64,000 nucleotides of DNA from Oegoconia quadripuncta (Eukaryota > Arthropoda > Insecta > Lepidoptera > Autostichidae), in the NCBI GenBank assembly GCA_949316235.1, contig OX438747.1, positions 35,975,601 through 36,039,600 on the forward strand. The letters are read 5' to 3'. Below are positions 5,416-63,518 of this stretch, one piece after another. Position 1 is the stretch's first letter. Every line of letters starts with the position of its first letter. The translations under genes were made by a program, and so were the position numbers. The notes beneath the pieces are model-generated. The model saw only the letters and a program-made list of their open reading frames with translations. It searched no databases and was not told the origin of the DNA.

Positions 5416-5568
5416 CTTCTCGTAGTTCTCCTTGGAGGGCATATGCTCGAGGTCCAGGTAGTCGTCAGCGAAGAACTCGTCGTACGTGATCCGTTCGTCA
5501 GGGTCGTGCTGCAGCAGCCGCGCCAGCAGCGAGCTGCAGCCGGCGCTGATCGAGGAGTTGCGGGGGAT
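5416..5568 (-). CDS. ULK3: ULK3-like exon 8 (end of kinase domain)
   Basis: Codes 51 residues beginning IPRNSSISAGCSSLLARLL, with QHDPDERITYDEFF and DLEHMPSKENYEK, between a CAG acceptor and a GTAGGT donor in phase 0. Human ULK3 ends its kinase domain with ERDPSRRISFQDFF and DLEHMPS. A donor follows, so more exons exist; none is recognisable between 1 and 5415. Confidence 0.9.
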
Positions 5569-8500
5569 CTGGGGCGGACAGGCGGAAACGACTCAAATAA
5601 ACCATTGCTCAGGATACGTCCCGCTGTATGAACGCTTGAGTGGAAGGGATCGATATTCTAATCTATAATAAATATCTTTGCACATACACACAGCGCCATC
5701 TAGTTCCACACTAAGCAACTAGGCTTGTATTATGGATACCAGATGGTTGATAAACTACACAAATACATTTTTTTTTGTAAATAAATACACATATAAATGA
5801 AAAACATCTATACATCGAGAACACATGTCTGTATTTATCATACAAACATATGCCCCTAACGGGATTCGAACCCGCGACCTTTTGATATAGCAGTCAGAGT
5901 TTTTAACCACTACACCAAACAGGTCGCTGCCATTCTAATTCTGTTCAAATTCCATTCAGTGTGTGCGCTCTCACCTCGATGGGAGCCTGCCGCTGTATCT
6001 TGTCGACGAGCTCCTGCAGCGTGCGGGAGCAGTAGGGCGCGCGACCGAACAGGCACTCGTACATTATCACACCTACAGTACAACAGATATACATACTCTT
6101 ACAAACCACAAGTGAAATAGCTTAAAACAAATAAGACACAAACAACCTGAACCGACTGTACGGTCGAACACGTACATTTTGGACCTCGGTCGCTGCGGCC
6201 GGCGCGTGCAGCCTAATTACCTGAATCTTAAAGTAATTCCGCTGACTAAGCGTGGCCGCGTCACCAAGTATATCATAGTTTTAAGTCAGTTACGTATAAC
6301 TCACCAACAATTTAACATCTCTCTAACATCACTTTGGAACAATTAACTTATAAACATACAATTACTATTCAACATATATCTCAATTAATTACAAAATAAC
6401 ATTAACATACCAATCTGTATATAAGTCAGTAAACTATTAACTGTAATATTTTACATTCATTCCACAAATCCCCGCCTATCTGTGAAGCGCCGCGCGCGTA
6501 CCACGGATAATTATATGTCGGAGATAGCGACAAATTAGCGATAGAATTCATTATTCGAACGGTCAACTGACTATCATAGTACGCGGTTAATGTGAACTAA
6601 ACTTGGTGGCGCTCGTGTCGCGGAAACCGGGCGGTGACGACTTTAACGGTAATATAAGGTCTGCACATCGAAAATGACGGACACCTTTTGCTACCGGCCG
6701 TCGAAGGAGTCGGAGCTCCACTGAACACATCACGACTGTGAGTGATTTGATTATTATCACCGACGCTTGGAAGAATCCGGTGAGTCGTTAGCTAATAAGA
6801 AGTTGATCATGGGATTTGAGCAAGGAGGAACTATAGACAAGGTACGGCTGAGTTCCACAGAGTGCACGCGGGGGCCAAGTTGTATGACACTCTTCAGCAG
6901 AAAGCATCTCAGGTTTCATGATCATAATCGAATGTGAATATCTTGTCGATTTCGTAAAGTAGCTTGCAATAATGTCGCTATTGCCCGAGCACCCTTTACC
7001 ACGCGACTGGCACGCGTCCCGGTCGCTAGTAACGCCCACCCCCGAACCCGCCACCATCTCTCCGACATATATGTAAGGGTCGTTATCCCTTTCACCGACT
7101 TTAATTTGGAAAAATAATATCACAAAGACAACCACGTGGTAATTATATCCAACAACGCAAAATGATAATCTAAGTGCGTAACTAAAATTACACTGACTAC
7201 TAATGAAAAACAAAGAAACAAATATACAGTCCCCTATACATCCGTCGCTGACCAACGCTGCGCAAAAAGTGAGCCCGAAGGACGACGACTAGGAGACCCC
7301 CCGAGGCCGTACGCCAGCGCCCTCCGATACTGCGTTTCCCACAAGGGGAACCGCGAGGCTCGGCTCAGCCTCCTGCCCACAACCCCGTTTTCCCCTGCCC
7401 AAGGGGTGACAGCTAGGGCGACCACCGCTTGGGGCGGATTTGCAAGAACGCATTCGTATTAGTTGTGATTGTGAAACAAAAGGGACCTAGAACCCGCAGT
7501 GAAAACTGCGCGGCGGTCCCTATACGTAGTAACGTATGCCACGTTATATCAGTCGACGCGGCCGGCCGCGGAGTGACGCTACCGACGCGGGAGCATGCGG
7601 ACGGGTGTTGGCCGGCGTTGGGAGGCAGGGGTGGAGGGTGGAGGGGGGAGGCACTGACCCACGCTCCACAGGTCGGCCCGCGCGGCGGGGGGAGGGGTGG
7701 AGGGGGGAGGGGGGAGGCACTGACCCACGCTCCACAGGTCGGCCCGCGCGGCGGGGGGAGGGGTGGAGGGGGGAGGGGGGAGGCACTGACCCACGCTCCA
7801 CAGGTCGGCCCGCGCGGCGGGGGGAGGGGTGGAGGGGGGAGGGGGGAGGCACTGACCCACGCTCCACAGGTCGGCCCGCGCGGCGGGGGGAGGGGTGGAG
7901 GGGGGAGGGGGGAGGCACTGACCCACGCTCCACAGGTCGGCCCGCGCGGCGGGGGGAGGGGTGGAGGGGGGAGGGGGGAGGCACTGACCCACGCTCCACA
8001 GGTCGGCCCGCGCGGCGGGGGGAGGGGTGGAGGGGGGAGGGGGGAGGCACTGACCCACGCTCCACAGGTCGGCCCGCGCGGCGGGGGGAGGGGTGGAGGG
8101 GGGAGGGGGGAGGCACTGACCCACGCTCCACAGGTCGGCCCGCGCGGCGGGGGGAGGGGTGGAGGGGGGAGGGGGGAGGCACTGACCCACGCTCCACAGG
8201 TCGGCCCGCGCGGCGGGGGGAGGGGTGGAGGGGGGAGGGGGGAGGCACTGACCCACGCTCCACAGGTCGGCCCGCGCGGCGGGGGGAGGGGTGGAGGGGG
8301 GAGGCACTGACCCACGCTCCACAGGTCGGCCCGCGCGGCGGGGGGAGGGGTGGAGGGGGGAGGGGGAGGCACTGACCCACGCTCCACAGGTCGGCCCGCG
8401 CGGCGGGGGGAGGGGTGGAGGGGGGAGGGGGGAGGCACTGACCCACGCTCCACAGGTCGGCCCGCGCGGCGGGGGGAGGGGTGGAGGGGGGAGGGGGGAG

Positions 8501-11500
8501 GCACTGACCCACGCTCCACAGGTCGGCCCGCGCGGCGGGGGGAGGGGTGGAGGGGGGAGGCACTGACCCACGCTCCACAGGTCGGCCCGCGCGGCGGGGG
8601 GAGGGGTGGAGGGGGGAGGGGGGAGGCACTGACCCACGCTCCACAGGTCGGCCCGCGCGGCGGGGGGAGGGGTGGAGGGGGGAGGCACTGACCCACGCTC
8701 CACAGGTCGGCCCGCGCGGCGGGGGGAGGGGTGGAGGGGGGAGGCACTGACCCACGCTCCACAGGTCGGCCCGCGCGGCGGGGGGAGGGGTGGAGGGGGG
8801 AGGGGGGAGGCACTGACCCACGCTCCACAGGTCGGCCCGCGCGGCGGGGGGAGGGGTGGAGGGGGGAGGGGGGAGGCACTGACCCACGCTCCACAGGTCG
8901 GCCCGCGCGGCGGGGGGAGGGGTGGAGGGGGGAGGGGGGAGGCACTGACCCACGCTCCACAGGTCGGCCCGCGCGGCGGGGGGAGGGGTGGAGCGCAGCA
9001 GCTCGGGCGCCATGTAGAGCGGAGAGCCCCGCAGGCCGCGCGCCGGGCCGTCCCGCAGGTGCAGCGCGAACCTGTAGCCCAAATGGGGTGGTCAGAGATG
9101 TCCCAAACGTTAAAGTATAACGGTACATGAAAGGGAACGGTACGTGTGTGACTGACGAAAGAAATACATGCTTCATCGGTGCTTTCTTTTATGATTAACT
9201 GGATACGCGTTTGACCACGATCCCATCGGATGGAGAGTGACGATGTGACAGAAGATGAAGCAAGGAATCCGGAATCAGTGACTACGTGTATTATCTCAGC
9301 CTGCCCCTTAACAGTGTTGTTTATATACTTCATATAACAAAGTCAATCAGTGACTACGTGTATTCTCAGCCTACCCCTTGACAGTGTTGTTTATATACTT
9401 CATATACGAGTAACAAAGTCGATCAGTGACTACGTGTATTATCTCAGCCTACCCCTTGACAGTGTTGTTTATATACTTCATATACGAGTAACAAAGTCGA
9501 TCAGTGACTACGTATATTATCTCAGCCTACCCCTTGACAGTGTTGTTTATATACTTCATATACGAGTAACAAAGTCGATCAGTGACTACGTGTATTATCT
9601 CAGCCTACCCCTTGACAGTGTTGTTTATATACTTCATATAACAAAGTCGATCAGTGACTACGTGTATTATCTCAGCCTACCCCTTGACAGTGTTGTTTAT
9701 ATACTTCATATAACAAAGTCGATCAGTGACTACGTGTATTATCTCAACCTGCCCCCTAAGAGTGTTGTTCGCATACTTATAAAGCCTTATACTTGTAAAG
9801 CCTGCCTACCTACCTACGTACCTGCGATAGTTTTCCTTTCAGCTTCGTTATACTACTGCCGTGAATTTTTTTCACGTCCAAAAAGCAACTGTTTAGCTGA
9901 CAGGGAGGAGGAACAATAATAATTGAGTAACAAAAATTTGCAGTTTACAGCCTAATATTATTTAAACAGATCCTTGAATCGATAAACTGTTTAAGATAAT
10001 GTTGACATATTCTCTGAAAAAATTGGTTCATTCAAAAGAAATATTGAGAAGAGTTGCCTGACTCGCTGACACTAGTTTACAGAAATGACTTGCCAAACCT
10101 TGTAAGGGATAAACATGAAATAGTATCGCCTGTTGACGATACCTCTGTATTGTTTAAAATAAATAGACTAAAATTAAATTATGACGATGTGAACAACGCT
10201 ATTTCTCAAATAGTAGAATGATTTACGGCAAATAATTTGTTACTTAATGAGAAAAAAACTGAATGTGTTTTGTACTGCTTAATGTCATTAGGTCCCTGAC
10301 ATTAGGTGTCGAGCTCTTACAATATATTTTTGAGGCTTGGGAAGATGCGCAGGATGCAATAGGAATATTTTGCGACTTGTCCAAAGCCTTTGATTGCGTT
10401 CATTATGACACTTTAATCAGGAAATTACGTCATTATGGTGTAACCGGCCGTGCTCTCGAACTTTTGAATTCTTATTTGAGTAATCGAGTTCAGAGGGTTG
10501 ATATCAGTGGCAATATATCGTCAGGGTCGACAGTCTGTATGGGCGTCCCACAAGGCTCCATTCTCGGACCATTTTTGTTTTTGGTTTACATAAATGACTT
10601 GCCAAACCTTGTAAAAGATAAACATGAAATAGTATTGTTTGTTGACGATACCTCTGTATTGTTTAAAATAAATAGACTAAAATTAAATAATGATGACGTG
10701 AACAACGCTATTCCTCAAATAGTAGAATGGTTTTCGGCAAATAATTTGTTACTTAATGAGAAAAAAACTAAAAGCATTAAATTTGTACTGCCTAATGTCA
10801 GGGAGGTTTCCACAAATATGATGAAAAAAAATGTCACTCTAGACCTTGTTGATTCCACTGTATTTTTGGGCATTACTTTGGACGCCAACTTACAATGGGG
10901 TCCTCATATCCATAAATTGGCGAGGAAGCTCAGCTCTGCAGCGTATGCAGTCAAAAAAATTAGACAAAAATCGGACGTAAATACTGCTACATTAGTATAT
11001 TTTAGTTATTTCCATAGCCTGATGTCTTACGGTATCTTGCTGTGGGGAAATGCCGCGGATATAAATACAATCTTTGTTTTACAAAAACGAGCCGTTCGCG
11101 AAATTTATCAATTGAGCAGTGTCACTTAGAGATAGGTTTAAAGAGAGCCTATAGTTGCTTACTGTGGAACTAGATGGCATTGTGTGTATATCCAAGGATA
11201 TTTAAATGTATATTTTATATTATTTATATCTATAGCATATAAATCAATGGTTATATGGGGTAATTTTTTGAATTGGTAACACTGTTTAAAAATTTAATAT
11301 CATACAAGTCACTCACCCGAAGTCGGCGACCTTGAGCGTATATTTCCCCTCGGAGCTCTTCTGCAGCAGCAGGTTGTGGGGCTTGAGGTCCATGTGGGCC
11401 ACACCTGGTAACAATATCCACATATTTACCTACAATCAGCTGTTTCGTTAAAAGCATCTTACATATGTCGGAGATAGCGATAAATTAGCGATAGAATTAA

Positions 11501-14500
11501 TTATTCGAACGGTCAACTGACTATCATAATACGCAGTTAATGGGAAGTAAACCTGGTGGCGCTGGTATCGCCGGAAATGCCGCGGTGACGACGTTAATAT
11601 AAGGTCCGCACATCGAAAATGAGAGGAACTTTACTACGAGCCTTCAAAGGAGTCGGAGCTCCACTGAACACATCTACGACTGTGAGTGATTTGATTACCA
11701 TTATCACCGACGCTTGGAAGAATCCGGTGAGTCGTTATCTAATAAGAAGTTGATCATGGGATTTGAGCAAGGAGGAATTGAATACCAGGTTGAATTCCAC
11801 AGACTGCAATGGCCTGAGGAGTGTGCAAATGTTTACTATCTCAGTCTAGTATCCATAGTACAAGCTTTGTTTAGTTTGGGACTAGATGATTGGTGTAAGT
11901 GCCCCAAATATTTATTTATTTATTAATAAACCTAACTTGAGATCTGAAACGCACGTGCATACTCAAGCAGTACTCACTTGAGAGGTGCGCGTATTAATAA
12001 ACGAAACTCAAGATTATCATTCATTCGCCGCTAAGGCTAAGGCTGTATTTTAGGGCACTTAGTTGTAATCTGTGCTTTAGTTTAATTTCCCAGTGTTTTT
12101 CCGCGTGTTGTGTCATGCATAGTAATATGTCAAACTATATAATTGGCTTTATAAGTACGTAATTAAATTTTAAGTAATATATAAGGATACACTGTAAGGT
12201 GTGTTGAAAATAAATCAATAAAGACAGAGAGAGAGAAAGAACAAGAGTTCAAATTTTGAATTTAAATATTATGATTTAACCGAAAAGAAAAAAACAAGGA
12301 GAATACTGAAGGAGCCACCCTCTCCCGGGCCGCGTCCGCCCGCTCCGGGGGGAGCCACCCTCTCCCGGGCCGCGTCCGCCCGCTCCGGGGGGAGCCACCC
12401 TCTCCCGGGCCGCGTCCACCCGCTCCGGGGGGAGCCACCCTCTCCCGGGCCGCGTCCGCCCGCTCCGGGGGGAGCCACCCTCTCCCGGGCCGCGTCCGCC
12501 CGCTCCGGGGGGAGCCACCCTCTCCCGGGCCGCGTCCGCCCGCTCCGGGGGGAGCCACCCTCTCCCGGGCCGCGTCCGCCCGCTCCGGGGGGAGCCACCC
12601 TCTCCCGGGCCGCGTCCGCCCGCTCCGGGGGGAGCCACCCTCTCCCGGGCCGCGTCCGCCCGCTCCGGGGGGAGCCACCCTCTCCCGGGCCGCGTCCGCC
12701 CGCTCCGGGGGGAGCCACCCTCTCCCGGGCCGCGTCCGCCCGCTCCGGGGGGAGCCACCCTCTCCCGGGCCGCGTCCGCCCGCTCCGGGGGGAGCCACCC
12801 TCTCCCGGGCCGCGTCCGCCCGCTCCGGGGGGAGCCACCCTCTCCCGGGCCGCGTCCGCCCGCTCCGGGGGGAGCCACCCCCTCCCGGGCCGCGTCCGGC
12901 CGCTACATAGCCCCGAGAGTAGTCGCCCGCGACCCTCGGGCGACGCCCGTATCATCCTACTCTCGTCCTACGCGCTCGTAGATCACCTACATCTGTCTGA
13001 TAAAGAATTACTGGCTTACATGCCCATTTTCTAACGTTTCGCCCAACAAAATTTTATGAACAGCGCCCTAAAAATTTTAATTAGGAGTCGAAACCCCTAT
13101 TGGCGCCTCTACGTCATAACTGGGGCCCAATTTATTTTTACCTTTCTCCCTGAGGAACTTCAACGCCGAAGCGAGCTGCTGCAGGAAGTATAGCACCTGG
13201 CGCAGAGAAAGGGAAGAATTACTCACAAAGATTCTGTTGATAATTTAAATATTAATGCATATAATTCTAACTTCGAGCATTTATGTCAATGTGTGATAGA
13301 TAAAGCGTTTATTTACATACATTTTGGACTTCCATGATAAAAGGTGGTTTCAGAATGGTCTACTTTTATTTTATTTTAAGAACACAAACAGTCAAAGCAT
13401 AATACAAGAAACATATTGGTAAAATAATAATTCTTTACCAAACAGTGTCCACAGATAAAAAATTTCAGAAAACATATTCATTTAACACCACCAGAACTAT
13501 AACAGACGAATACATCGACATGCCCAAAATAGTATATTATGCAACTAGTGAATAAAGGACGGATTTAAAGCGAGGGCCGTAGATGAGTCACGAGCAAGTG
13601 AAGGATTCTAACGATTGAATCACGAGCGCAGCGAGTGATTCAACTGTTAGAATCCTGAGCGACGCGAGTGATTCATGGCCCTCGATATAAATTCGTACTT
13701 TATTCAGGAGTTGCATACTACACTTTATACCATGACTACGAGAAAAAGACAATTTAAGCGAAAATAGAAATTTAATCAAGAAATAATAAATGTTACATTA
13801 ATTGAAATGGACATTAAAATTAGAGCAATGACTGAATTTAAGCGTAATTTTCTTATTATTATCATTAGGGTGGTCAACTTGTGAAACAATATTTATTTTC
13901 TATAATGGCAGCAAAGAACACAAAACAGTTTTTAATCTAATGCCAAACTCCTTGTCGCAAATATCGACCAATCAAATCTCGAGAATTTATTTGCACCAAA
14001 GAGTTTGAATTTCGAATCTTAGCGCAAGGAGTTTGTGTAAGCATTGAAATGGAGATCGGATATATTTTGTGTTCCAAATTCAAACACCAAAATAGTGAAT
14101 AAAAACAAAACAGTGAATAAAAGGCCTTTTTATTCACTGATTTGCGTGAATAAAATAAGCTTTTTAGAGTAGGTGTGGTATAAAAATATATTTTAATGTA
14201 CCTATATGCAATGGATCCCAAAAGTGCACGAACAACCACACCGGCTTCTCTGTTTTTTTTTAATCATTTTTTATGTAAATTATATATTATTCTTGTGCAG
14301 TAACTTCATGAGAATAATACTCGATTCTTGCCATAAACAAAAAAAGTGTTTGATAAATCATAATACAGGGAGCCAGTGATACCCACGCACTTCTGTGGAT
14401 TACCATACCATTCAACCATAACATAATGCACACAAAAAGAGACTAACTACAATCACTTAAGAAAAACACGAAATAAATCTGCACTTTCCGTAAAAATACC

Positions 14501-17500: not shown

Positions 17501-20500
17501 CGTGCGCTTAGTGACGTGCGCTGAGTGACGTGCGCTTAATGACCTGCGCTTAGTGACGTGCGCTTAGTGACGTGCGCTTAGTGACGTGCGCTGAGAGACG
17601 TGCGCTTAGTGACGTGCGTTTAGTGACGTGCGCTTAGTGACGTGCGCTGAGAGACGTGCGCTTAGTGACGTGCGCTTAGTGACGTGCGTTTAGTGACGTG
17701 CGCTTAGTGACGTGCGCTGAGAGACGTGCGCTTAGTGACGTGCGCTGAGTGACGTGCGCTTAATGACCTGCGCTTAGTGACGTGCGCTTAGTGACGTGCG
17801 TTTAGTGACGTGCGCTTAGTGACGTGCGCTGAGAGACGTGCGCTTAGTGACGTGCGCTGAGTGACGTGCGCTTAATGACCTGCGCTTAGTGACGTGCGCT
17901 GAGAGACGTGCGCTTAGTGACGTGCGCTTAATGAGCTACGCTTAGTGACGTACGCTGAGTGACGTTGCACAAATTACTGCGGCACATGTATTCTATTTTT
18001 TTGGCGCCCGAATGGAGACATGACATACCCGCGTTTCCGGCACCCGCCCGTACCGGTGTATGTACTTGGAGAGGTCTCCGCCGCAGCAGTACTCCATTAT
18101 GATGTATATATTCCTGGAATAAGAGAACTACTTCAACATCAAACATTCCTACACGACTCTATAGTAGCGATACTCAACTCCGAATGACACTAAAGTCCCG
18201 TATTCATGGTAAACATGTTGCAGTGTGAAACCTAGTGTGGACACTATTAACCGCCTCCGTGGCTTAATGTAAACAACATTGGGTTTACGATTCGGAGGTC
18301 GCGGGTTCGATCCCCAGCGGGGTACATGTTTAATTACTCGGTTTGGTTGGTGGTAGGGCATTTTACATGTCCGCCTGGCTAGCTACCACCATCTCATCTA
18401 AATCTGCCGCCAAGCAGCAATGTTAATAGCATTGTTGTGTACCGGTTGTCAGAGATAAGATAGCCAGTCCCCCAAATGTGTTGGGTTTTCCGGTTTTCCG
18501 GGTCAGTACGCTTCGACCTCATCTTCACTTAACATCAGGTGTGATTGAGGTCAAGTACGAACCAACATGTTATTTCAGATACCTTTTAATATAATGTATT
18601 TGTAATTGACCAACCAAAGTGACCGATATAGCCCGACGAATTGCTAAACTTAAGTGACATTGCTCGTAGGACCGATGGTCGTTTGGGGACGCTGCCCCCC
18701 GACCCCGATTTGGTAAAGATAGCTGGATGTGGACAGCACAGGACCGATCATTGTGGAGGATCTTTGGGGGATGCCTTTGTCCAGCAGTGGACGTCTTTCG
18801 GCTAATATGATGATGATTTGTAATCGACTGTAAAATGTTTCGTCTGAAGTACGGAAAGAATCTAGTGGTCACCCATCTATAAACTTACCATGCCAGATGT
18901 ACGATCTAGCGCTTAGTTGACGGCAATAGTTCATACATCGGCAGATTGGGATGTTGAGGTTGTTGGACCACAGTAGAGACGAGAGGATGACGAAGTAGTA
19001 TGAGATAAGTTTATTGTATTAAGTAAGTCTGAATTAGTTATGGTTAAGTTATAGTTAAGTTAAGATGAGTTTAAGATTCCTTCTCTAGATGTAGTTGATA
19101 GATAGATAGATAGATAAAAAGTTTATTGCATAAACTGGCACACATACAAAGGAGAAACATGAACAAATAAGAAAACAAGAGATATACAATTTTTAACAAA
19201 TACAAACAGATATAAACAAATATACCATAACATTAAAAATTAAAAATTAAAATAGAGTATATGTGGGTATGTGTGCAACAGTCATGCAACAAGGCCATAG
19301 CTCAGCGCATTAAAAATGCTCAATAAATGAGCAGGCACTGATTTTCAGCTATCACCCAGGAGGCGCGCGGGAACAAGCATAAAAATTAAAAAAGAAAAGA
19401 AAAGTATGCAGAGGATAATGTGTAGTGTATGTAGTGGTGCGCTGAGGTGAATGGAACCGTATTATTCCGTCTACGAGAAGTGCTTAGGAATACCCAGTTT
19501 TTGAATCACGAGAACAATTGCAAAGGCAAATTAAAAATCACAATATCAGCAATGCACAGCGATTTCACTATTAACACCGATGTATTGATAATGAGAAGTC
19601 TTATCAATAATTTGCCAAATCAAAGTTTCCAAAAACCATCATGGCCATATCTAGAAGGTATCCAGCTTGCGGACCCAACCTTCAACATCAGTCGCCCAAT
19701 AGACCTATTATTGGGCGCGGACATTTACCCAACTATCATCCTCAGCGGTATGATAAGAGAAGTTGACTCACTGCCCATAGCACAACAAACACGCTTTGGG
19801 TGGATATTATGTGGTAATGTCAAATCATATCAGTGCAATGTCATAATAAACAACATAGACGAGATTCAAAAATTCTGGGCAATAGAAGACATCGCTGACA
19901 ACCCTGATAACTTATCTACAGAAGATCAGCATTGTATGGAGCAATTTAAATCAGAAACCAAACGCCATGAGGATGGTCGATACATTGTAAGGCTACCCGT
20001 GAAACCAGAGATCAGGGAAAAATTGGGAGAATCACGATCAAAGGCAGTAGCACAATTTCATCAATTGGAGAAAAAATTTATTAAGCACGATAACATAGCA
20101 ATCAATTATAAAACATTCATGAATGAATATATCCAATTAGGTCATATGCGCGAGTGTGAAAGAAATAAGACACCGCCACTACATTGTTATCTACCGCATC
20201 ATTGTGTGCAGCGCCCCGACTCATCGACAACCGCACTCCGGGTCGTTTTTAATGGGTCAGCAAAAACGTCATCGGGTTATAGTCTCAATGATTTGATGTA
20301 CAGTGGGCCAAACTTACAGCAAGATTTGTTCTCACTAATTATTAAGTGGAGGCAGTACAAGTACGCCTTCACCGCGGACATAGAAAAGATGTTTCGCCAA
20401 ATTCTTTGCCACGAAGATGACCAGCACTATCAAAAAATCATATGGAGGGAGTCTATCGATCAGCTGTTGAGTGAATATGTGCTAACCACAGTAACATATG

Positions 20501-26500: not shown

Positions 26501-29500
26501 AAAATATCCCAACAGACTTGATAATTTTCTGTGCTGATGTGTAGATGCTGTATTAATTTTTCTGCTTCTCCCCTTAGCTTGCTTTTCAAAAACTGCATTT
26601 TTTGTGCATTTGATATTGATTTATTGTTGTGTATGGATTCTTGGAACAGATCCTTGAATGATATCCATTGATGATAGTTCCCACTGAATGTAGGGATATC
26701 CATCCTTGGTGTTGATGTTTCTCTATGGGACACTGCCCACATTTTGCTATTTATTAGCTTTTTTATGTTGTTGTACTGCATTTCGTACTTGCTAAATGAA
26801 TTTTCATAATCCATGTTGTCTTCATAGAGCTCACTATCGATCTGCCAATGCAAGGAGTCGATCGCTGCCCAACGAGAATGAATAGTTTTCAAAGTATCCT
26901 CGAATTCCCATTTCTCAGATATGGTTTCGAGGTCAACGTTATTGATGGTGCGAGAAAATGCCTTAAAATTACTGCTTTGCTTTCGTAACATTTCCTCCAA
27001 TTTACTTCCGATGCCTTGTGAGGTTTTGGGAGTGGGAAGCGTTTGATTTCTTCCCGACTGATCTGATGATGTTTCTCCGACCTTTTGCACTTCAGTAAAT
27101 GTTGCTGGTTTTAAAACAAATTCCTCTTTCTTAGGGATTGTATTTGAATAATGCTGTATTTTTATTCGTGACTCCTCATAATATTTCTTGGTCTTCTGAT
27201 AATAATTATCCGCATAATATATATGATTTTTGTCCTCAGATGAGCACAAATTGATGTGGTTGGTCTGGAATTCTTGCCAATAGAGGTCTAAGGTGTCCAA
27301 TCGCTTTTTAATATAGGCAGGAGTCTTGCGTTCACCTCCATCTTTTCTGAAATTAGCCATGAGTTGGTCTATGGCTTCCATGAGTTGATTTTGATTTGCC
27401 AGGAGGTCTTCCATTTTGATAGTAAGTGATTATAAAATAGAAAAAACCTTACTTGATTGGTGTTTTCTTGTAGATGCTATGGCGATAGTAATGATGATAC
27501 AATTGCCACTGATATTGATCACAGTAAAATGTAAACTGTATAAATTGGTTATACTTGCTTGCTGTTCCTCCCCAATGTGAGTGCGCCCTATGCACAGTAT
27601 ATGCGCCTTCTCAAATCAGCCGGTGAGACCCGCTTGTGGGAGGCCGACCAATCCGATTCGCTACTGCACTTAGTAACACAAAACACTAAGGTCAAACTCG
27701 AAGGACCATAAAGTTGTACGGTTGCTTACCGCACAATCTTTAAATGATGTAAAAATGATAATATTTTGATACTTAAGACACTGATTTAATGATATAAACT
27801 TATAATAATGATGATGCTAATGAGTACACGAGTATGATGATTGCTTGCTAAACGTGGACTGATTTGAAAGGCGAATGAAAGAAATGTATTATGACGTAAA
27901 CTGCTGACGCCGCCGCCGCGCCGGTGGTATGTGCGGTATTGCACCGTACATCTCCTATCTGATGAATATTACTAAGGGCAAAGTTGATTGTAATGAACTG
28001 CTTTCTAATATAAGGCTGAAAACAGACCAGTTAGGTCTTCGGGATCGGCCACTGTTATGTGTTCCTTTATCGAGGACAAATTACAGGCAGAATTTATTTC
28101 TGATACGCGCTAGCAACAGCTTCAACAGCATATGCAATGACCTTGACATTGACCTATTTTGCACGAGTACTTCAACAGTGAGACGTGTAGGTACTCACTA
28201 AAGATTTTTATGACTGCGTGGAGGGTGACACGTAAGTGAACCATTGTTATTGTGGCTGACTGTACCTACTATTGTTATCTATTTAATGTTTTTTCTTTTT
28301 AACTTTCCTAATTTACATGTGGGAACTTGTAATTGTCATTTTTATATTAGCTGTAAGTTCTCCTAAAAGCAAATAAAAAAATTTAATAAATAAATAAAAT
28401 AAATATTGTCGCGCGTTGTGACGTATGAAAGTAGGTCGTGGAAAATGTATGCTGCAGATCGTACACCAGACGTAGTTTAACTTCGTTATTCGAAAACAGT
28501 AATTGCGACACGGCCATGGATAACTTCTAGATCCGTTATATCTATCAAAACAAAAGTATAAGCAGAAATCTAAATACTTGTGATCCCAGGTGAAGTTCTT
28601 CATCTCAACCACATGAGGGTGTACGAGGGTCTTGAGTAGCCGGATTTCTGTGACCAGGTTGTCGACGGCCGAGCCGGACTGCTTCACCCGGCTCTTGTCC
28701 ACGCATTTGATCGCCACTACGGACCGACCACCCACCTGTGAGCAATGCTCAATATGAATAATGGCCAATATGAGTAACAGATTAGACTATTTATTTATTA
28801 AAGTAACCAAAGGAATTTTATAATTTGAATGAATACTTTAATAAATTTTGACTCTTTGTTTGACTTCGTAAATTTTGACATTTTGATTTAATTTTTTGTA
28901 ACCTTGACATTCAACTGATCGAGTGACATAATGTAATAATATTTTATTGTTAATTATTCTATCTTATAATTTTAATGGATACTTTGAAAGTTAATTTTGA
29001 CTCTTTATTTTAAATTTTGTAACCTTCATATTTAACTTATCTAGTGACATGTTTGTAATATTTCTAAATTGTTAATTATTATATTTTATACAATGAAATA
29101 AGTTGCACACCCTAAATGGGTAAACTGTATAAGTACCTACCAATTAATGTGACAACATCTTTGTAACACAGTTGTATGCAATAAATAAATTCTAATTCTA
29201 ATTCATTTTGTTAGAATTGCAATATTATAAATTGTTCAGCATGTGTTGACGGAATGTGTTCGGGGCGTATCTCGACGCTATTCAGACGATGTAGGATATT
29301 ACAACAGTATACTCTCCTCTCCAATATCGGTGCAAGCTAAAGCAGTGTAGCTTTTTTTTTATGCACGACGGGTGTCATTGTGTCACCTCAGTGAAGATGA
29401 GGTCGAAGGTGGAAGCGTACTGACCCAGAAACCCGAATACATTTAGGGGACTGGCTATCTTATCTCTGACAACCGGAACACAACAATGCTATTAACATTG

Positions 29501-31110
29501 CTGCTTTTTTTACTTGTAACTAACACCTATGGATTTATTTGTCCGAAATAAAAGTGATTTGATTTGATATCCAACAGTGGCGTGCCTTTTTGCTTTTCAG
29601 GACAGGATTATTTTTGTAGTTTTTACATTATTAAATTAAGTTAGTATATTTATTGCCCATTTCTGTTCATTGTGCAAGGTCATAATTGTCAAGGTTTTCC
29701 AAATTTTTGGTCAGCAAAAATATGCGGTAAACTTATTGGAATGGGAACAGCCAACAATCTAATGTCCATTGATTAATATTCCTGATCAAATTTTTCTAGT
29801 AAGGCAAGCCGGGCTTTTGGGCTTATATGAAGATACCGCCACTGATATCCAACTAATATTATAAAGTTTATTTGTTACTCATCTCAGCCCATAAACATCC
29901 CACAACATTTATAATTATCCAAAACCATTCAAAATGTTTTCAGAAAACTTAATTGGTATTACGCAGGCCTGTAAAGGTTGACCTGCTTCAGTCTATACAG
30001 TAAGGAATAAAGAATAAGAGAAACCAGAACAAGTGTCAAGAATAATGTTGCAATCTGCAAATCAAATCAAAGAAATATTTATTTCGTAGGATAAAAATTA
30101 TCACTTGAAAACGTCACATTTTTTATTTTATTATTAAAGTTTTTGACATTATTTCTCATTCACAAAGCTGATTCCCCAGAGAAGAACGAGAAAGAAACTC
30201 AAGGGTTGCTCTTTTAAATAAGTTTAGGTTACAATTATATTATATTGTATAATTAGACTGAATATCGCCGAGCGGTCTATGTCCATGCTTGCTTATCATC
30301 CAGATAGTCAGAAATTTTATGATAGCCTTTGGTAAATAATGTCTGTTTTATGATGGTTTTGAATTCATTTTAAGGTAAATTTTGAATGTCCACTGGAACC
30401 TTCGTATTCGTTGGCGGGCCGGTCTCCGCAACTCGACGTCTGAATGCGCCTATTTTGCGTACGGGGGAATACCTAATACTGCCACCCAGGTTCTTGGAGG
30501 AATCCGGCCCTTATTAAATGGCTTAGTGACTTTATGTAAACAGCTGACATGAACAGCAAGTTTATTTTTATATCTGGTATTAACATTATGTATATCACTA
30601 TTTTTCTTAAGCGATTCTATATTTTTTCTTACATACATTAAGTTTTCGTAAACATATTGCGATGCTAATGTTAATATACTAATTTCTTTAAATTTATTCC
30701 TAAGAGACTGCAGTTAGTGTCGATAAGGGGGCGCAAGAAAAGGGTAAAAAGTTTTTCTTTTGCTTCAGTATCCTTAACGACATCCTAACCTTATCTGCTC
30801 ATCAAGTAATCTAGAATAAACAATGAATACTAAGCAAACCAGGACAAAGAAAAATATATTCAGGCAACTGCTTTAACATAGCATAACATTAGTACAACAG
30901 CTCGCTTCTGTAAAACAAAGTTTAACACGTCTTTTGGTGTTTAAAATCGCATCAGACAATCATAAACTGATGATAAAATAGCGTAATAAATTTGTTACCT
31001 AGATAAAATTGCGCTTTGTTTACCTTTGTATAAGCTTTATATACGGTGGAATAGCTCCCAGATCCGAGCTTCTCTGTAACGATGTATCCCTCGATTTTAG
31101 GGAAAGCCAT
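5416..31110 (-). CDS. ULK3: ULK3/Aduk-like serine/threonine kinase (partial gene, 8 exons, 3' end outside window)
   Basis: This is the only host gene I can rebuild. Coding segments: 31024-31110, 28578-28735, 18029-18113, 13142-13196, 11317-11404, 8950-9071, 5975-6072 and 5416-5568. All introns are GT-AG, the phases agree, and the sum is 846 nt (282 codons). The product shows a Gly-rich loop (GSGSYSTV), the VAIK lysine, an alpha-C glutamate (TEIRLLK), a hinge followed by GGDLSKYIH, the loop HMDLKPHN, DFG, MAPE and DLWSVG. The non-RD loop (human ULK3 has HLDLKPQN) and the phrase GSPLYMAPE match ULK3 better than ULK1/2. ULK3 acts in autophagy, Hedgehog signalling and abscission through C-terminal MIT domains; those exons are absent here and should lie left of position 1. 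Exons are GC-rich in AT-rich surroundings. Assignment by recalled similarity. Confidence 0.9.
5668..5930 (-). mobile_element. tRNA-headed SINE (family B)
   Basis: On the minus strand: a tRNA-like head GGTGTAGTGGTTA and GGGTTCGAATCCCG (B box), then GATGAATACAGACATGTG, ACCATCTGGTATCC, AACTAGATGGCGCTGTGTG and a tail of ATTTATTTA type. Same family as copies at 38208, 43449, 45058 and 58903. It may belong to the Metulj group of lepidopteran SINEs; that name is from memory. Confidence 0.75.
5975..6072 (-). CDS. ULK3: ULK3-like exon 7 (kinase C-lobe)
   Basis: Codes (G)VIMYECLFGRAPYCSRTLQ, then ELVDKIQRQAPIE, between a TAG acceptor and a GTGAGA donor. Matches the alpha-F/alpha-G region of ULK3 (VILYEALFGQPPF). 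Confidence 0.9.
6512..7071 (+). mobile_element. Full-length MITE (TATGTCGGAGA ends)
   Basis: Starts TATATGTCGGAGA and ends TCTCCGACATATA, giving 13-bp perfect terminal inverted repeats with a probable TA target duplication. No coding capacity: the 155-codon minus frame over its right end has no recognisable domain. It lies in intron 6 of the ULK3-like gene. Confidence 0.7.
7625..8998 (-). repeat. Minisatellite of exon 6 3' end plus splice donor, 21 copies
   Basis: In transcript sense each unit reads (C/T-rich tract)-CCGCCGCGCGGGCCGACC-TGTGGAGCGTGG|GTCAGTGCC. The donor motif (plus-strand GCACTGACCC) starts at 7651 and recurs 21 times, last at 8942, mostly at 66-bp spacing, with five 59-bp spacings and one of 65 bp. 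The sense strand stays open in the exon-6 frame from 9071 to 7544. The opposite strand carries runs of four to six G in every unit. All the long frames here on both strands are by-products of a stop-free repeat. Confidence 0.95.
8950..9071 (-). CDS. ULK3: ULK3-like exon 6 (activation segment), 3' end merged into a minisatellite
   Basis: Codes FALHLRDGPARGLRGSPLYM, then APELLRSTPPPAARADLWSV plus one base of the next glycine codon, up to the first GTCAGT donor (8949). The next exon restores SVG-VIMYECLFG, as in human SMG-VILYEALFG. From about CTCCACCCC onward the exon sequence belongs to a 59-66 bp unit repeated 21 times downstream. Between MAPE and DLWS it has one residue more than human ULK3 and a PPP run, so the array has probably altered the exon. 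Which donor is used in vivo cannot be told from DNA. Confidence 0.88.
9185..9262 (-). mobile_element. LINE 3' tail fragment
   Basis: Minus strand: TCACATCGTCACTCTCCATC, then GATGGGATCGTGGTCAAACGCG and an A-rich end. Same tail type as 47640-47705 and 61290-61335. Confidence 0.45.
9275..9795. repeat. 72-78 bp tandem repeat, 7 copies
   Basis: TCAGTGACTACGTGTATT recurs at 9275, 9347, 9423, 9501, 9579, 9651 and 9723. Longer units carry an extra CGAGTA. The 189-codon plus-strand frame across it (repeating YYLSLPLDSVVYILHI) is a consequence of unit lengths divisible by three and has no sign of function. Intron 5. Confidence 0.9.
10080..10295 (+). pseudogene. Truncated LINE RT piece, repeats part of the next copy
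   Basis: NDLPNLVRDKHEIV, then VDDTSVLFKINRLKLN and NNLLLNEKKTE, corresponding to 10590-10800 of the adjacent copy. It carries a stop in place of the W of VEW. Confidence 0.6.
10296..11142 (+). pseudogene. CR1/jockey-group LINE reverse transcriptase fragment
   Basis: An open frame to 11129 with FCDLSKAFDCVHYDTL, GVPQGSILGPFLFLVYIND, FVDDTSVLFK, FLGITLDANLQWGPHIH and YGILLWGNAADI. It lacks endonuclease, the N-terminal RT and the C-terminal tail. The active-site box reads FVDD where the sister copy at 2107 reads FADD. 5'- and 3'-truncated in intron 5; no promoter. Confidence 0.85.
11143..11232 (+). mobile_element. SINE family B tail fragment
   Basis: AGCCTATAGTTGCTTACTGT, then GGAACTAGATGGCATTGTGT and an ATTTA-rich end, joined directly to the LINE fragment. 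Confidence 0.55.
11317..11404 (-). CDS. ULK3: ULK3-like exon 5 (catalytic loop, DF of DFG)
   Basis: Codes GVAHMDLKPHNLLLQ, then KSSEGKYTLKVADFG, with the final glycine split across the GTGAGT donor. Holds the catalytic aspartate and asparagine (DLKPHN) and the metal-binding aspartate. Confidence 0.92.
11461..11830 (+). mobile_element. MITE copy 3 (TATGTCGGAGA family), 3'-truncated
   Basis: Begins TATGTCGGAGATAGCGATAA and follows the other two copies to about 11820, where a SINE tail takes over. Intron 4 of the ULK3-like gene. Confidence 0.6.
11833..11928 (+). mobile_element. SINE family B 3' fragment
   Basis: AGTATCCATAGTACAAGCTT, TTAGTTTGGGACTAGATGAT and CCCCAAATATTTATTTATTT. Matches the tails at 43280, 53850 (minus) and 58330. 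Confidence 0.6.
11929..12240. repeat. Relic of the GGCCCG-ended MITE family and unassigned AT-rich DNA
   Basis: 11929-12030 is an inverted match of 56460-56560 (GCGCGTATTAATAAACGAAA and CTCACTTGAGAGGTGC). 12040-12240 is AT-rich with an AATAAA near 12210 and a GAGA run; nothing else seen. Confidence 0.4.
12311..12910. repeat. 40-bp GC-rich tandem repeat, 15 copies
   Basis: GGAGCCACCCTCTCCCGGGC, then CGCGTCCGCCCGCTCCGGGG, starting every 40 bp from 12311 to 12871. Nearly perfect: one CCGCC to CCACC change near 12417 and a variant last unit. Stop-free frames of 178-228 codons on the minus strand are artefacts. Intron 4, about 230 bp from exon 4. Confidence 0.95.
13142..13196 (-). CDS. ULK3: ULK3-like exon 4 (alpha-E helix)
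   Basis: A 55-bp microexon coding VLYFLQQLASALKFLREK plus one base, between a CAG acceptor and a GTAAAA donor. The spacing from PE to QQLASAL equals that of human ULK3, confirming the junction with exon 3. Confidence 0.88.
13538..13717. mobile_element. Foldback MITE
   Basis: TATGCAACT...GTGAATAAAG...GGATTTA...GCGAGGGCC on the left is mirrored by GGCCCTCG...TAAATTC...CTTTATTCA...AGTTGCATA on the right, with inner arms AGGATTCTAAC/GTTAGAATCCT. Almost the whole 180 bp folds on itself. Confidence 0.65.
13718..15107. other. Intron 3 stretch with little recognisable content
   Basis: AT-rich. A TACAGGGTG-type MITE relic lies at about 14815-14950 (TTCGTAATGAGGAGGGGAGT, GACCAGTTAACAGGAATTAA), related to 41866-41975. 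I see no coding exon, RNA gene or long repeat in the rest. 13200-13537 likewise shows nothing. Confidence 0.5.
15108..15115. repeat. 8-bp target site duplication, left
   Basis: CTTACACA, exactly repeated at 16616-16623 on the other side of the 1500-bp element. Confidence 0.85.
15300..15379 (+). CDS. THAP-domain first exon inside the P-like element
   Basis: ATG at 15300 opens MSTCAVKWCGKNSRTSSF, then KKDNITFHR, ending at a GTAAGT donor in phase 2. The C-x4-C spacing followed by ITFHR matches the start of the C2CH THAP DNA-binding domain (C-V-x-x-C ... SFHRFP). The remaining zinc ligands (C and H) would be in a following exon that I cannot find, so the copy is probably not functional. Confidence 0.7.
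15800..15968. repeat. Nested hairpin MITE within the P-like element
   Basis: ATATGAACAACTTTT, then TTCGCGAAAAAAAAATC and CTGTTCCATA, mirrored by TATGGAACAG, GATTTTTTTTCGCGAA and AAAAGTTGTTCATAT. Confidence 0.65.
16616..16623. repeat. 8-bp target site duplication, right
   Basis: CTTACACA, matching 15108-15115. Confidence 0.85.
16872..17137 (+). mobile_element. HaSE-type SINE (family A), 5'-truncated
   Basis: GATTCGGAGGTCACGGGTTC (B-box region), CTCGGTTTGGTTGG, TAAATCTGCCGCCAA, CCGGTTGTCAGAGATAAGAT, CATCAGGTATGATTGAGGTC and a poly(A) tail. 16624-16871 before it is unassigned repetitive-looking DNA. Confidence 0.75.
17138..17965. repeat. 14-bp tandem array, about 59 units, with higher-order structure
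   Basis: Units GACGTGCGCTTAGT, GACGTGCGTTTAGT and GACGTGCGCTGAGA are interspersed. A marked pair (CTGAGTGACGTGCGCTTAAT) occurs at 17521, 17745 and 17857, that is 16 and 8 units apart. The array starts directly at the poly(A) tail of a SINE and stops about 63 bp short of exon 3. Confidence 0.95.
18029..18113 (-). CDS. ULK3: ULK3-like exon 3 (hinge region)
   Basis: Encodes NIYIIMEYCCGGDLSKYIH and then RYGRVPETR between a CAG acceptor and a GTATGT donor, phase 2 in and phase 0 out. The hinge and GGDLS stretch is typical of ULK kinases. A 14-bp tandem array begins only about 63 bp downstream of its donor. Confidence 0.9.
18251..18566 (+). mobile_element. HaSE-type SINE (family A), near full length
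   Basis: Complete tRNA-like head (CCGCCTCCGTGGCTTAATGT to GGGTTCGATCCCCAGCGGGG), body and CATCAGGTGTGATTGAGGTC tail; poly(A) lost. The 70-codon minus frame over it is spurious. Confidence 0.8.
18630..18835 (+). pseudogene. RTE-like LINE C-terminal fragment
   Basis: Reads TDGRLGTLPPRPRFGKDSW, then TAQDRSLWRIFGG, the well-known end of RTE-type ORF2 (AQDRxxWR), with a GATGATGAT tail. Confidence 0.65.
19087..19480 (-). mobile_element. LINE 3' UTR with GATA tail
   Basis: On the minus strand it ends TTATGCAATAAACTTTTTATC, then (TATC)n. The inner part (GGGTGATAGCTGAAAATCAG) resembles 42480-42550. The BEL/Pao pol half begins at its right edge. Confidence 0.5.
19447..24747 (+). CDS. BEL/Pao pol-env polyprotein (5'-truncated, one open frame)
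   Basis: 1766 codons; the first ~20 are probably flanking DNA, since retroelement similarity starts near residue 22. Order: protease C-terminal part (LLGADIYPTIILSGMI, 87-102); RT with FTADIEKMFRQI at 308 and FYMDDVV (YMDD 387-390); RNase H with GFSDASIRAY (D567) and DSTAVLGWL (D644); integrase with an H2C2 finger (H881, C911, C914) and catalytic D946, D1012, E1065; a DUF5641-like C-terminal module (about 1179-1225); then env. Env has an inner Met at 1268, a hydrophobic signal-like segment (about 1281-1298) and a furin-type site RQRR|G at 1393-1396 before LINGVGYV, the layout of baculovirus F and errantivirus envelopes. The frame closes early at 24747 (see next entry). Confidence 0.88.
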   Translation: MNGTVLFRLREVLRNTQFLNHENNCKGKLKITISAMHSDFTINTDVLIMRSLINNLPNQSFQKPSWPYLEGIQLADPTFNISRPIDLLLGADIYPTIILSGMIREVDSLPIAQQTRFGWILCGNVKSYQCNVIINNIDEIQKFWAIEDIADNPDNLSTEDQHCMEQFKSETKRHEDGRYIVRLPVKPEIREKLGESRSKAVAQFHQLEKKFIKHDNIAINYKTFMNEYIQLGHMRECERNKTPPLHCYLPHHCVQRPDSSTTALRVVFNGSAKTSSGYSLNDLMYSGPNLQQDLFSLIIKWRQYKYAFTADIEKMFRQILCHEDDQHYQKIIWRESIDQLLSEYVLTTVTYGTKAAPFLAMMTLKQLAIDEFHKYPEAAKVLSEDFYMDDVVTGSHDIRFIKQLQADLTALLKLGGFNLRKWTANKPELMENVSKENNSNQQAFDFKHQESAKALGLRWHPHYDQFTIELKINASSSSKSATKRSLLSEISKVFDPLGWLSPVTAKLKLLFQKVWSLELQWDDYLPEDIKAEWSLIKQDLQYINHIKIQRWLEIHENDVIELHGFSDASIRAYACVIYCKINKQHEKQPSSVVLVAAKTRLVPLNKNVSLPRLELCAALLLSRLIKTVQQCWPAHTIKIHGWSDSTAVLGWLQGDPKRWKPFVANRVEQITTTIPSDCWRYVKSGDNPADCASRGLSVEQLKQHTLWWSGPTWLPTLQADSEAKEHPLYVTNEEIKKSVQSNITTLQNHDNIIGDILNKYSWLARATRVIAWVLRVAVRGEYKQSYLTINELRRAKNMLIKYQQQLDFSEDIDSLKKHSKVESKSKLLNLTPFLDEDGLLRVGGRLKNANVNQSMKHPLIIPHSSHLTSLLIDEAHKTTFHGGPRLTLASLRQQYWIIGGNRAVKKRLRTCVRCRRNDPVKQHQIMGDLPAARCNPTRPFYHTGVDYTGYVDVKFNKGRGAKTTKGYIAVFVCMVTKAVHLEIVSDLSSSAFLAALRRMAARRGAPHHIYSDNGTNFVGANRCLQKEFIDLQNTLDHDFFSAISDMKIQWSFTAPSWPSSGGLWESAVKSLKHHLRRVVGEQKLTFEEFTTLLAQLEACLNARPLCALSEDPEDIEYLTPSHFLASGPTLTIIETERDERTRWQLTQKIFNDIWKRWRTEYLSQLSTRSKWRQPQTNLKIEDIVIIDEANMPAGKWALGRVVEVHPGKDGYVRVASVKTKNGIIKRPIVKLSVLPINDTWHNEGNQKDKQNVQQNDIAPERPISNNNMKRSRQKRSCNLLAMTLLLCIAIITPVQCTYNLLSLQNNQSIYLDKVTSMRLVRDEWKLIVYYDMNPYWEGSTLLLKYINNLENICMKSNRKSQCDIVILQLRHGYTELDHYNRMLLGQQFYTRTRQRRGLINGVGYVAHSLFGVLDEQFAEQYQQDIELLRKNQKHLALLWRNQTSVVEAEYNLIKRVEDVIDKQHKIYNQHLNELETAASTLNNEIKNIEDITDFTLSSIIANSILVNLKNIQNTLLDTVTNIQYGKFNIHLLTPEQLRDELNIISGQIAKDLSIPIENIQTDLSKLYHLLQVRARMTKQFFIFEIKVPLMGRDNYKIYKIIAIPQQIDNNMMRSVIPIADHVAINIQKDSYLPITEGELQRCLQYDTDIQLCPLQRPIYHMKSDNSLCIKDQASNQCKVNTMTCTSTWTRLTKTNTHLFFCCDQCTVRILCEHQVTAERLTKAGIITSSSDCVIKGEDFTIISHKLQKNEINTQPDRRYQNRGSIN
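24748..25204 (+). pseudogene. Env C-terminal part, out of frame with the preceding ORF
   Basis: After about 24710 the env-like reading continues in the neighbouring frame to a stop at 25204. It includes a membrane-spanning stretch (VIYCLVAAAGLAGALYAW, about 24915-24970) followed by a basic RQWRARR tail, as expected for the membrane anchor of a fusion envelope. A single-base frameshift near 24710 therefore separates ectodomain from anchor. Whether it is a mutation or a sequencing error cannot be told here. Confidence 0.65.
25310..25545 (+). repeat. LTR, plus orientation (236 bp)
   Basis: Begins TGTACGGTGCAATACCGCAC and ends GTGCGGTAAGCAACCGTACA; the two ends are imperfect inverts of each other. 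Identical by eye to the reverse complement of 27715-27950. No obvious polypurine tract precedes it (CTCTCGCCGGCAGCA). Confidence 0.9.
25549..27414 (-). CDS. BEL/Pao gag with start of protease (truncated)
   Basis: 621 codons. N-terminal helical part, then a DUF1759-like gag core (MDIPTFSGNYHQWISFKDLF onward, about 240-410), a Cys/His-rich zone (CPVCSNNHGLFHC, CKNCLYDHNGQQC, CRQCQGNHNTLLH; about 460-530) and the start of the aspartic protease with ALIDQGSQTS (D near 589). The frame ends at the LTR junction right after VVFGDKR, so the rest of the protease is missing here; the matching part opens the plus-strand pol frame. Same strand as the host gene. Confidence 0.9.
   Translation of the reverse strand: MEDLLANQNQLMEAIDQLMANFRKDGGERKTPAYIKKRLDTLDLYWQEFQTNHINLCSSEDKNHIYYADNYYQKTKKYYEESRIKIQHYSNTIPKKEEFVLKPATFTEVQKVGETSSDQSGRNQTLPTPKTSQGIGSKLEEMLRKQSSNFKAFSRTINNVDLETISEKWEFEDTLKTIHSRWAAIDSLHWQIDSELYEDNMDYENSFSKYEMQYNNIKKLINSKMWAVSHRETSTPRMDIPTFSGNYHQWISFKDLFQESIHNNKSISNAQKMQFLKSKLRGEAEKLIQHLHISTENYQVCWDILNHRYNNTKLIFSSHINILLSLPTIQQQSAASIKKIHDTTNECLNSIKNLGVDISTWDPLVVHILAQKLDSETHNDYIESLKNPRELPTLSEFIEFLENKFTSLESSRRKQDTSKTTQQTNQQDTSPGKKAHFQKPISNLSWKKPFNNYSTIKNYNTSIQKCPVCSNNHGLFHCKMFLESKPEAKRKTVAQLNLCKNCLYDHNGQQCISQKRCRQCQGNHNTLLHDTYATTASDLTTSSTSTAQNSRKNVTHVSQDNIAEILLATAQIKVRSVDGTYLNMRALIDQGSQTSLITENAAQQLGLPRQRSRGVVFGDKR
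27415..27714 (-). promoter_or_regulatory. Retroelement leader with probable primer-binding site
   Basis: Read on the minus strand, the LTR is followed by ACTTTA and then TGGTCCTTCGAGTTTGAC (27691-27708). TGG matches the complement of a tRNA CCA end; I cannot name the tRNA. About 280 nt of leader precede the gag ATG. Confidence 0.6.
27715..27950 (-). repeat. LTR, minus orientation (236 bp), 5' LTR of the gag half
   Basis: Reverse complement equals 25310-25545 along its whole length as far as I can read. TG...CA ends. Followed at 27951 by an interrupted LINE frame. Confidence 0.9.
27951..28410 (+). pseudogene. LINE ORF2 C-terminus and 3' UTR, cut by the retroelement
   Basis: SYLMNITKGKVDCNELLSNI, then RTNYRQNLFLIRASNSFN, stop at 28201, UTR ending in AAATAAA repeats (TAAA)n near 28400. 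It starts in mid-frame exactly at the LTR edge, so the LTR element inserted here. Confidence 0.65.
28578..28735 (-). CDS. ULK3: ULK3-like exon 2 (VAIK lysine, alpha-C helix)
   Basis: Follows a CAG acceptor and ends in phase 2 at a GTATTT donor. It contains the beta-3 lysine in VVAIKCVDKS and the alpha-C glutamate in LVTEIRLLK, then HPHVVEMKNFTWDHK, which parallels HPHIVQLKDFQWD of human ULK3. Confidence 0.9.
28770..29205 (+). mobile_element. LINE 3' UTR with (TTCTAA)n tail
   Basis: AT-rich, ends GCAATAAATAAATTCTAATTC, then ATTC repeats. It contains a doubled segment (TGACTCTTT...GTAACCTT...TGACAT, at 28850 and 29000). No coding part left. Intron 1. Confidence 0.4.
29352..29505 (-). mobile_element. 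HaSE-type SINE (family A), 3' part
   Basis: Minus-strand tail and body: GTGAAGATGAGGTCGAAGGT, GACTGGCTATCTTATCTCTG and CAATGCTATTAACATTGCTG. 5' part absent. Confidence 0.7.
30055..30705 (-). pseudogene. CR1/jockey-group LINE 3' end
   Basis: 3' UTR (GAAAACGTCACATTTTTTAT, AGAAACTCAAGGGTTGCTC) and ORF2 tail; the 30450-30638 frame has MYVRKNIESLKKNSDIHN and NTRYKNKLAVH. A sister copy is at 41990-42310. 29510-30054 is AT-rich with no feature I can name. Confidence 0.65.
31024..31110 (-). CDS. ULK3: ULK3-like exon 1 (start codon, Gly-rich loop)
   Basis: Encodes 29 residues from an ATG at 31110: MAFPKIEGYIVTEKLGSG and then SYSTVYKAYTK, ending in phase 0 at a GTAAAC donor. Human ULK3 has the equivalent [22 protein letters not shown] close to its own start, which supports this start codon. 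Confidence 0.88.
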
Positions 31111-63078: not shown

Positions 63079-63518
63079 TATATGAAGGAGTATGGGCCAT
63101 AGTCCGCCAGGCTGGCCGAATGCGGGTTGGGGACTTATCTTATATGAAGGAGTATGGGCCATAGTCCGCCAGGCTGGCCGAATGCGGGTTGGGGACTTAT
63201 CTTATATGAAGGAGTATGGGCCATAGTCCGCCAGGCTGGCCGAATGCGGGTTGGGGACTTATCTTATATGAAGGAGTATGGGCCATAGTCCGCCAGGCTG
63301 GCCGAATGCGGGTTGGGGACTTATCTTATATGAAGGAGTATGGGCCATAGTCCGCCAGGCTGGACGAATGCGGGTTGGGGACTTATCTTATATGAAGGAG
63401 TATGGGCCATAGTCCGCCAGGCTGGTCGAATGCGGGTTGGGGACTTATCTTATATGAAGGAGTATGGGCCATAGTCCGCCAGGCTGGCCGAATGCGGGTT
63501 GGGGACTTATCTTATATA
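63079..63518. repeat. 62-bp tandem repeat, 7 copies, from an RTE-type LINE end
   Basis: TATGAAGGAGTATGGGCCAT begins at 63081 and every 62 bp to 63453. The unit GCCATAGTCCGCCAGGCTGG, then CCGAATGCGGGTTGGGGACTT (split), is the inverse of a common lepidopteran LINE 3' end. Single-base variants in units 5 and 6. Confidence 0.92.

Follow-up and report, generated by a model that had tools for sequence, protein, structure and literature searches.

Two minisatellite arrays of splice donors at exon ends of a moth ULK3/Aduk kinase gene, probably tolerated by the gene

In the moth Oegoconia quadripuncta, exon 6 of a ULK3/Aduk kinase gene ends inside a GC-rich minisatellite that presents the exon end and its 5' splice site 21 times, and exon 9 of the same gene ends in a separate array of 11 donors. 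Exons 1-8 of the gene lie on the minus strand of a 64-kb stretch of contig OX438747.1 (C6:35975601-36039600), hereafter the window, in whose positions all coordinates are given unless another contig or stretch is named; C6 is 36,358,368 bases long and the assembly comprises 622.6 Mb in 45 contigs. We consider it reasonably likely that minisatellites expanded recently in two exons of extreme GC content and that the gene tolerates them owing to sufficient use of the first donor. Because similar arrays occur in two human genes, the moth arrays probably reflect unstable repeat DNA with which the gene copes, and not a new switch.

Analysis with Tandem Repeats Finder (TRF) gave a single array at 7627-8993, with a period of 66, 21.2 copies and 96% matches, whose first unit is the last 44 nt of exon 6 (8993-8950, minus strand). 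Each unit of 66 nt consists of 44 nt of the exon-6 end followed by 22 nt of the intron-6 start, with a GC content of 80%, so that the exon-intron boundary is covered by a tandem array in which every unit bears the exon end and the donor. On the minus strand the array holds 21 copies of GTCAGT, with 25 identical nucleotides before each and 15 identical nucleotides from each donor on. Donor 1 is at 8944..8949, donors 2-9 are within 8437..8883 (first bases 8883, 8817, 8751, 8692, 8633, 8567, 8508 and 8442), and donors 10-21 are within 7653..8376. Successive donors are 66 nt apart in 15 of the 20 intervals, 59 nt apart in four and 65 nt apart in one, and across the 20 inter-donor units (1291 bp) the sole difference is in the length of C runs, with zero substitutions. 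The 10-bp word CTCCACCCCT stands at both edges of the array, as an exon copy at 8984..8993 and an intron copy at 7627..7636 (both minus strand). Sixteen G-quadruplex (G4) motifs were found on the plus strand, which is the G-rich template strand, and none on the other. A sequence-only reading of this stretch had proposed that exon 6 ends in a minisatellite with the exon end and GTCAGT in all 21 units; the TRF result and the comparison of units agree with it, and together with the identity of donors and units they rule out chance as the origin of the array. An Rfam scan of the window gave nothing at gathering scores.

The second array lies in the neighboring 10-kb stretch L009 (C6:35965602-35975601), 272 bp outside the window. 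Exon 9 (L009:9728-9574, or C6:35975329-35975175, minus strand) ends in ACACG/GTGAGG, where the slash marks the splice point, and this end is repeated in an array at L009:8934-9607 that contains 11 donors and is unrelated to the exon-6 array. The donor spacing is 58 nt in seven of ten intervals and 65 nt in three, in a regular 58-65-58 order. Since the reading beyond the first donor is CGG-TGA, all ten of donors 2-11 lead to a stop directly after the 52 residues that precede the first donor. A third array (L009:5252-4664) begins about 17 bp past the apparent donor of exon 11 and does not include it; arrays of a 32-bp family are present at L009:4664-5252 and L009:772-1666.

GC-rich homogeneous arrays are hard to assemble and the exon-6 array was read from one assembly, which raises the question of whether the number of units is wrong or the array mis-assembled. 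We regard such an artefact as highly improbable. The order of the 66-, 59- and 65-bp units at exon 6 is irregular and differs from the regular 58/65/58 order at exon 9, an array of 1.4 kb is short for long reads, and the 25-mer GCCGACCTGTGGAGCGTGGGTCAGT, which covers the exon end and the donor, has 21 exact matches in the whole assembly, all of them within the exon-6 array.

The identity of the gene was established from its joined protein. Its best match in the PDB was ULK3 (6fdy, E 9.6e-60), its identity to lepidopteran ULK3 reached up to 83%, and the profile scores were 210.4 bits for Pkinase and 48.4 bits for MIT; the protein therefore has the ULK-type kinase followed by an MIT domain by which ULK3/Aduk is recognized, and the earlier description of a ULK3-like kinase was borne out. 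Exons 1-8 are within the window, and exon 9 onward is in L009. On the minus strand, exon 1 carries the ATG (31024..31110, MAFPKIEGYIVTEKLGSGSYSTVYKAYTK), exon 2 ends in CACAA/GTATTT with its end set by phase (28578..28735), and exons 3 and 4 are at 18029..18113 and 13142..13196. Exon 5 encodes the catalytic loop HMDLKPHN and the DFG motif (11317..11404). Exon 6 to its first donor is 122 nt long (8950..9071, FALHLRDGPARGLRGSPLYMAPELLRSTPPPAARADLWSVG), enters in phase 2 and leaves in phase 1, and has the acceptor ggctacag/GTTCGC and the donor GAGCGTGG/gtcagt. Exon 7 (5975..6072) carries the start of alpha-F and the residues VIMYECLFG, and exon 8 (5416..5568) the end of the kinase domain. Exons 1-10 are open and joinable and exons 3-8 form one open frame, as had been claimed for the phase across exons 5, 6 and 7. 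When Trichoplusia ULK3 was used as a query on the assembly, 82 matches were obtained. Of 187 first-look candidates, 90 were scored, and none of these revealed a second ULK3 locus; matches away from the gene had at most 52% identity and were read as other kinases. As no other ULK3 locus was found among these candidates, the copy with the exon-6 array presumably must be spliced. Two apparently read-through gene models, Brenthis P0057 (WSVG/EM) and Plutella P0090 (WSLG/KT), suggest that the position of intron 6 is conserved. In the Plutella xylostella model, part of the exon-6 sequence recurs after the apparent read-through, perhaps through a duplicated exon 6 or an artefact of the gene model. 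Among the papers searched, none names ULK3 together with Lepidoptera.

Every exon-6 donor was joined to exons 7 and 8, and the reading frame was followed. Only donor 1 yielded an unextended kinase, in agreement with the earlier statement that the first donor gives an intact kinase. Seven of the 21 donors (1-4 and 8-10) are in frame, adding 0, 22, 44, 66, 147, 169 and 191 amino acids, with the inserts of 147 to 191 partly read in other frames. The remaining 14 shift the frame and each reaches a stop; for donors 11-21 it lies at the exon 6/7 junction or beyond. The view of 21 equivalent donors thus holds for their sequence but not for their outcome. The exon-6 unit is free of stops in all minus-strand frames, but so are 71% of 20,000 base-shuffled units; composition therefore accounts for this property, and selection for open frames was ruled out.

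These outcomes bear on whether the array is a functional device in which the choice among 21 donors sets the length of a proline-rich loop between APE and alpha-F and so tunes kinase output. Because the 66-nt unit is 22 codons long and ends exactly at ADLWSVG/G, donors 2-4 would add 22, 44 and 66 amino acids and rejoin alpha-F correctly. With the 22-residue insert the Pkinase profile still scored 208.1 bits, in two stretches, versus 210.4 bits without it, and IFI6 is reported to use two downstream repeat units as donors (PMC4526556). Nevertheless, we find a device of this kind very unlikely. Five of the 20 donor spacings are not divisible by three, so that the frame preservation expected of an evolved regulatory device is lacking, two thirds of the donors (14/21) shift the frame, and a comparable loop insert was present in none of 60 aligned homologues, one of which (P0052) was unalignable in this region. 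The analysis lent no support to the earlier proposal that donor choice, the length of the array and kinase output could be linked, and both the frame-breaking spacings and the stops behind all ten later donors of exon 9 speak against a tuned device.

We also compared the coding sequence next to the array with other Lepidoptera. The interval between APE and DLWSVG in most of them has nine residues of the type M-L-x-G-x-Y-D-A-R before V/A, whereas this kinase has LLRSTPPPAAR. The exact G-x-Y-D is found in 41 of the 60 aligned homologues and related forms (G-x-H-D, K-x-Y-D and others) in 18, P0052 again being unalignable there. STPPPAA stands in place of the usual, though not strictly defining, G-x-Y-D, and STPPPA was found in none of the 60. 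The length of the loop is not unusual, as Plutella likewise has 11 residues, with YD kept. The coding word CTCCACCCCT has its second copy inside intron 6, where the array reaches its far end, suggesting that intron-type sequence may have come into the coding region by way of the array.

Mean identity was then ranked exon by exon, for the kinase among 47 Lepidoptera plus the query (13 of the 60 rows were dropped as partial, odd or non-lepidopteran). Exon 6 was the second lowest of 48, exon 8 ranked 13th, exon 7 17th, exons 1 and 3 20th, and exon 4 48th. In the ranking made for exon 9 (46 Lepidoptera plus the query, 14 rows dropped), the part that overlaps the array was the second lowest of 47, all of exon 9 ranked 5th, exon 8 13th, and the start of exon 10 24th. 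Altered coding sequence is thus seen in the exons that bear arrays. Such divergence, together with the rank of the whole kinase (5th lowest of 48) and a weak exon-6 donor, could also be expected of a gene that is degrading, in which both donor arrays mis-splice and ULK3 function has been lost in this lineage. We hold this to be unlikely, because exons 1-10 are open and joinable with both the kinase and the MIT domain still recognized, because exons 1, 3, 4, 7 and 8 show ordinary conservation, and because no replacement copy appeared among the scored candidates.

The two exons that carry donor arrays are the two extremes of the gene in GC content, with 0.80 each against 0.43-0.66 in the nine others (exon 11 was read by eye for this comparison); their unique parts have 0.78 (exon 6) and 0.81 (exon 9). 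The surroundings are also rich in arrays. Under one set of criteria, there were 7 arrays in the window and 4 in the adjoining 30 kb, that is 11 in 94 kb, versus none in 20 random 10-kb stretches (200 kb from contigs C1-C6); with looser criteria, the 200-kb sample yielded 10 short arrays. L011, one of the three 10-kb neighbors, had no array. About 320 kb separate the window from the end of C6, and a general chromosome-end effect was considered and rejected, since no qualifying array was found in two 5-kb stretches (10 kb together) placed similarly far from the C1 and C2 ends. Given these ends and L011, only a local dense domain is claimed.

Other repeats of the gene and the window stand apart from the two donor arrays. 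Intron 4 contains, off the exons, a 40-bp minisatellite with 85% GC and 14.9 nearly identical copies (12311..12904, plus strand), and intron 3 contains 59 copies of a 14-bp repeat (17136-17965), which start some 60 bp past the exon-3 donor. Intron 2 holds a retroelement (19435-27429), presumably BEL/Pao-like, in which each strand has a long open frame (1770 amino acids on the plus and 626 on the minus strand). Further long minisatellites are at 49738-50519 (78 bp), 61528-62078 (51 bp) and 63079-63517 (62 bp), and these three appear to be transposon-derived.

A more far-reaching proposal is that a mutational process linked to GC content acts locally and, by preference, amplifies the 3' end of an exon with extreme GC along with the 5' splice site there. 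Such a process would have hit two exons independently, carried part of the intron into the kinase loop and produced the rows of 21 and 11 donors, of which the first must be chosen if the gene is to function, and the length of an array could then act as an inherited control of kinase output. Arrays take up 11% of the gene span and contain two of ten donors (P = 0.30); when the two donor arrays are left out, the cover is 5.4% and the same two of ten give P = 0.10. These values mean that the arrays cannot be said to target donors, two donors within arrays being not clearly above chance, and we rate the proposal as decidedly unlikely.

In the expansion that we favor, a GC-rich minisatellite capable of forming G-quadruplexes would have arisen recently across the 3' end of the extremely GC-rich exon 6. 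The word shared by the array edges suggests that the first duplication may have come from slippage, or from misalignment of strands, at short direct repeats shared by exon 6 and intron 6. The array would then have grown and been homogenized inside the minisatellite-dense domain, and exon 9 would have acquired its separate array of the same kind. Most transcripts, we infer from the sequence, are spliced at the first exon-6 donor, in which case the other 20 copies act as intron; leakage to later donors would produce proline-rich loop extensions of 22n amino acids or frameshifted mRNA. In the sequence, the lasting effect is seen in the coding region: the final part of exon 6 is an array unit, and the C-rich half of that unit encodes STPPPA at the place of the G-x-Y-D-type loop of other Lepidoptera.

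Several points weigh against this account. The use of the first donor is itself inferred, and that donor is weak, with a computed U1 pairing of -5.9 kcal/mol that is weaker than in nine of the ten other donors, which range from -3.4 to -11.2 kcal/mol as set in this analysis. Classic experiments with duplicated 5' splice sites can favor the donor closest to the acceptor. Any array with a partial last unit would also show a shared edge word, and STPPPA could have had the reverse origin, the exon having been C-rich first. In G/A/R/P content, exon 6 ranks 1st, exon 3 2nd and exon 9 4th of 47, and exons 6 and 9 are G/A/R/P-rich in other Lepidoptera also, so that high GC may precede the arrays. The low identity ranks of exon 5 (7th) and exon 2 (9th of 48), of the whole kinase and of the part of exon 9 before its array (4th of 47) indicate that the divergence is partly outside the arrays.

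Arrays of this kind have been described in humans. Turri et al. (1995, Nucleic Acids Research (NAR) 23:1854), as cited in PMC2572611 and PMC3618361, reported a minisatellite that gives multiple splice donors in an interferon-induced transcript, and for IFI6, PMC4526556 describes three mRNA species made by use of the downstream repeat units. IFI6 resembles the moth gene in that units of a minisatellite serve as splice donors; it differs in gene and phylum. In the moth the units are 66 bp long and lie in a conserved kinase, within its catalytic domain, the downstream donors mostly shift the frame, and the same gene has a second donor array. The human CBS variable number tandem repeat (VNTR) of 31 bp is named c.1444_1467+7(16_21) (PMC2630376); by its name, it comprises 24 nt of exon end and 7 nt of intron in 16-21 copies, with a donor in each. 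It is polymorphic, and the title of Lievers et al. 2001 ties it to reduced CBS activity; its unit is length-invariant and vertebrate, whereas the moth units have 59-66 bp. The sequence-only reading knew of no described case, a claim that does not stand beside IFI6 and CBS. Internal tandem repeats at exon-intron boundaries of human duplicated genes (PMC2812944) are likewise of minisatellite length, alter gene structure and may form new introns; they average four 30-bp units in young paralogues, unlike the 21 and 11 donors of the moth gene, for which no paralogue was seen. For GC-rich G4-forming minisatellites, G4-dependent instability was reported in yeast (PMC3486850), and a section heading of the same paper states that GC-rich minisatellites cluster at human chromosome ends.

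The human precedents indicate that such arrays exist in working genes, and the moth array is one of the IFI6/CBS kind, an exon-boundary minisatellite with multiple donors. What seems unusual relative to the few cases compared is that one gene carries two such arrays and that its kinase loop has been rewritten. We know of no second array in CBS.

How the spliceosome chooses when identical 5' splice sites stand in tandem is a question usually addressed with constructs. Here, one gene has two natural series of near-identical donors, 21 and 11 long, and offers a natural test of splice-site choice: in the exon-9 series any donor but the first means an immediate stop, and in the exon-6 series donors 1-4 would give proteins of graded length. 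The gene also presents a usually conserved part of a kinase that has been altered by a minisatellite.

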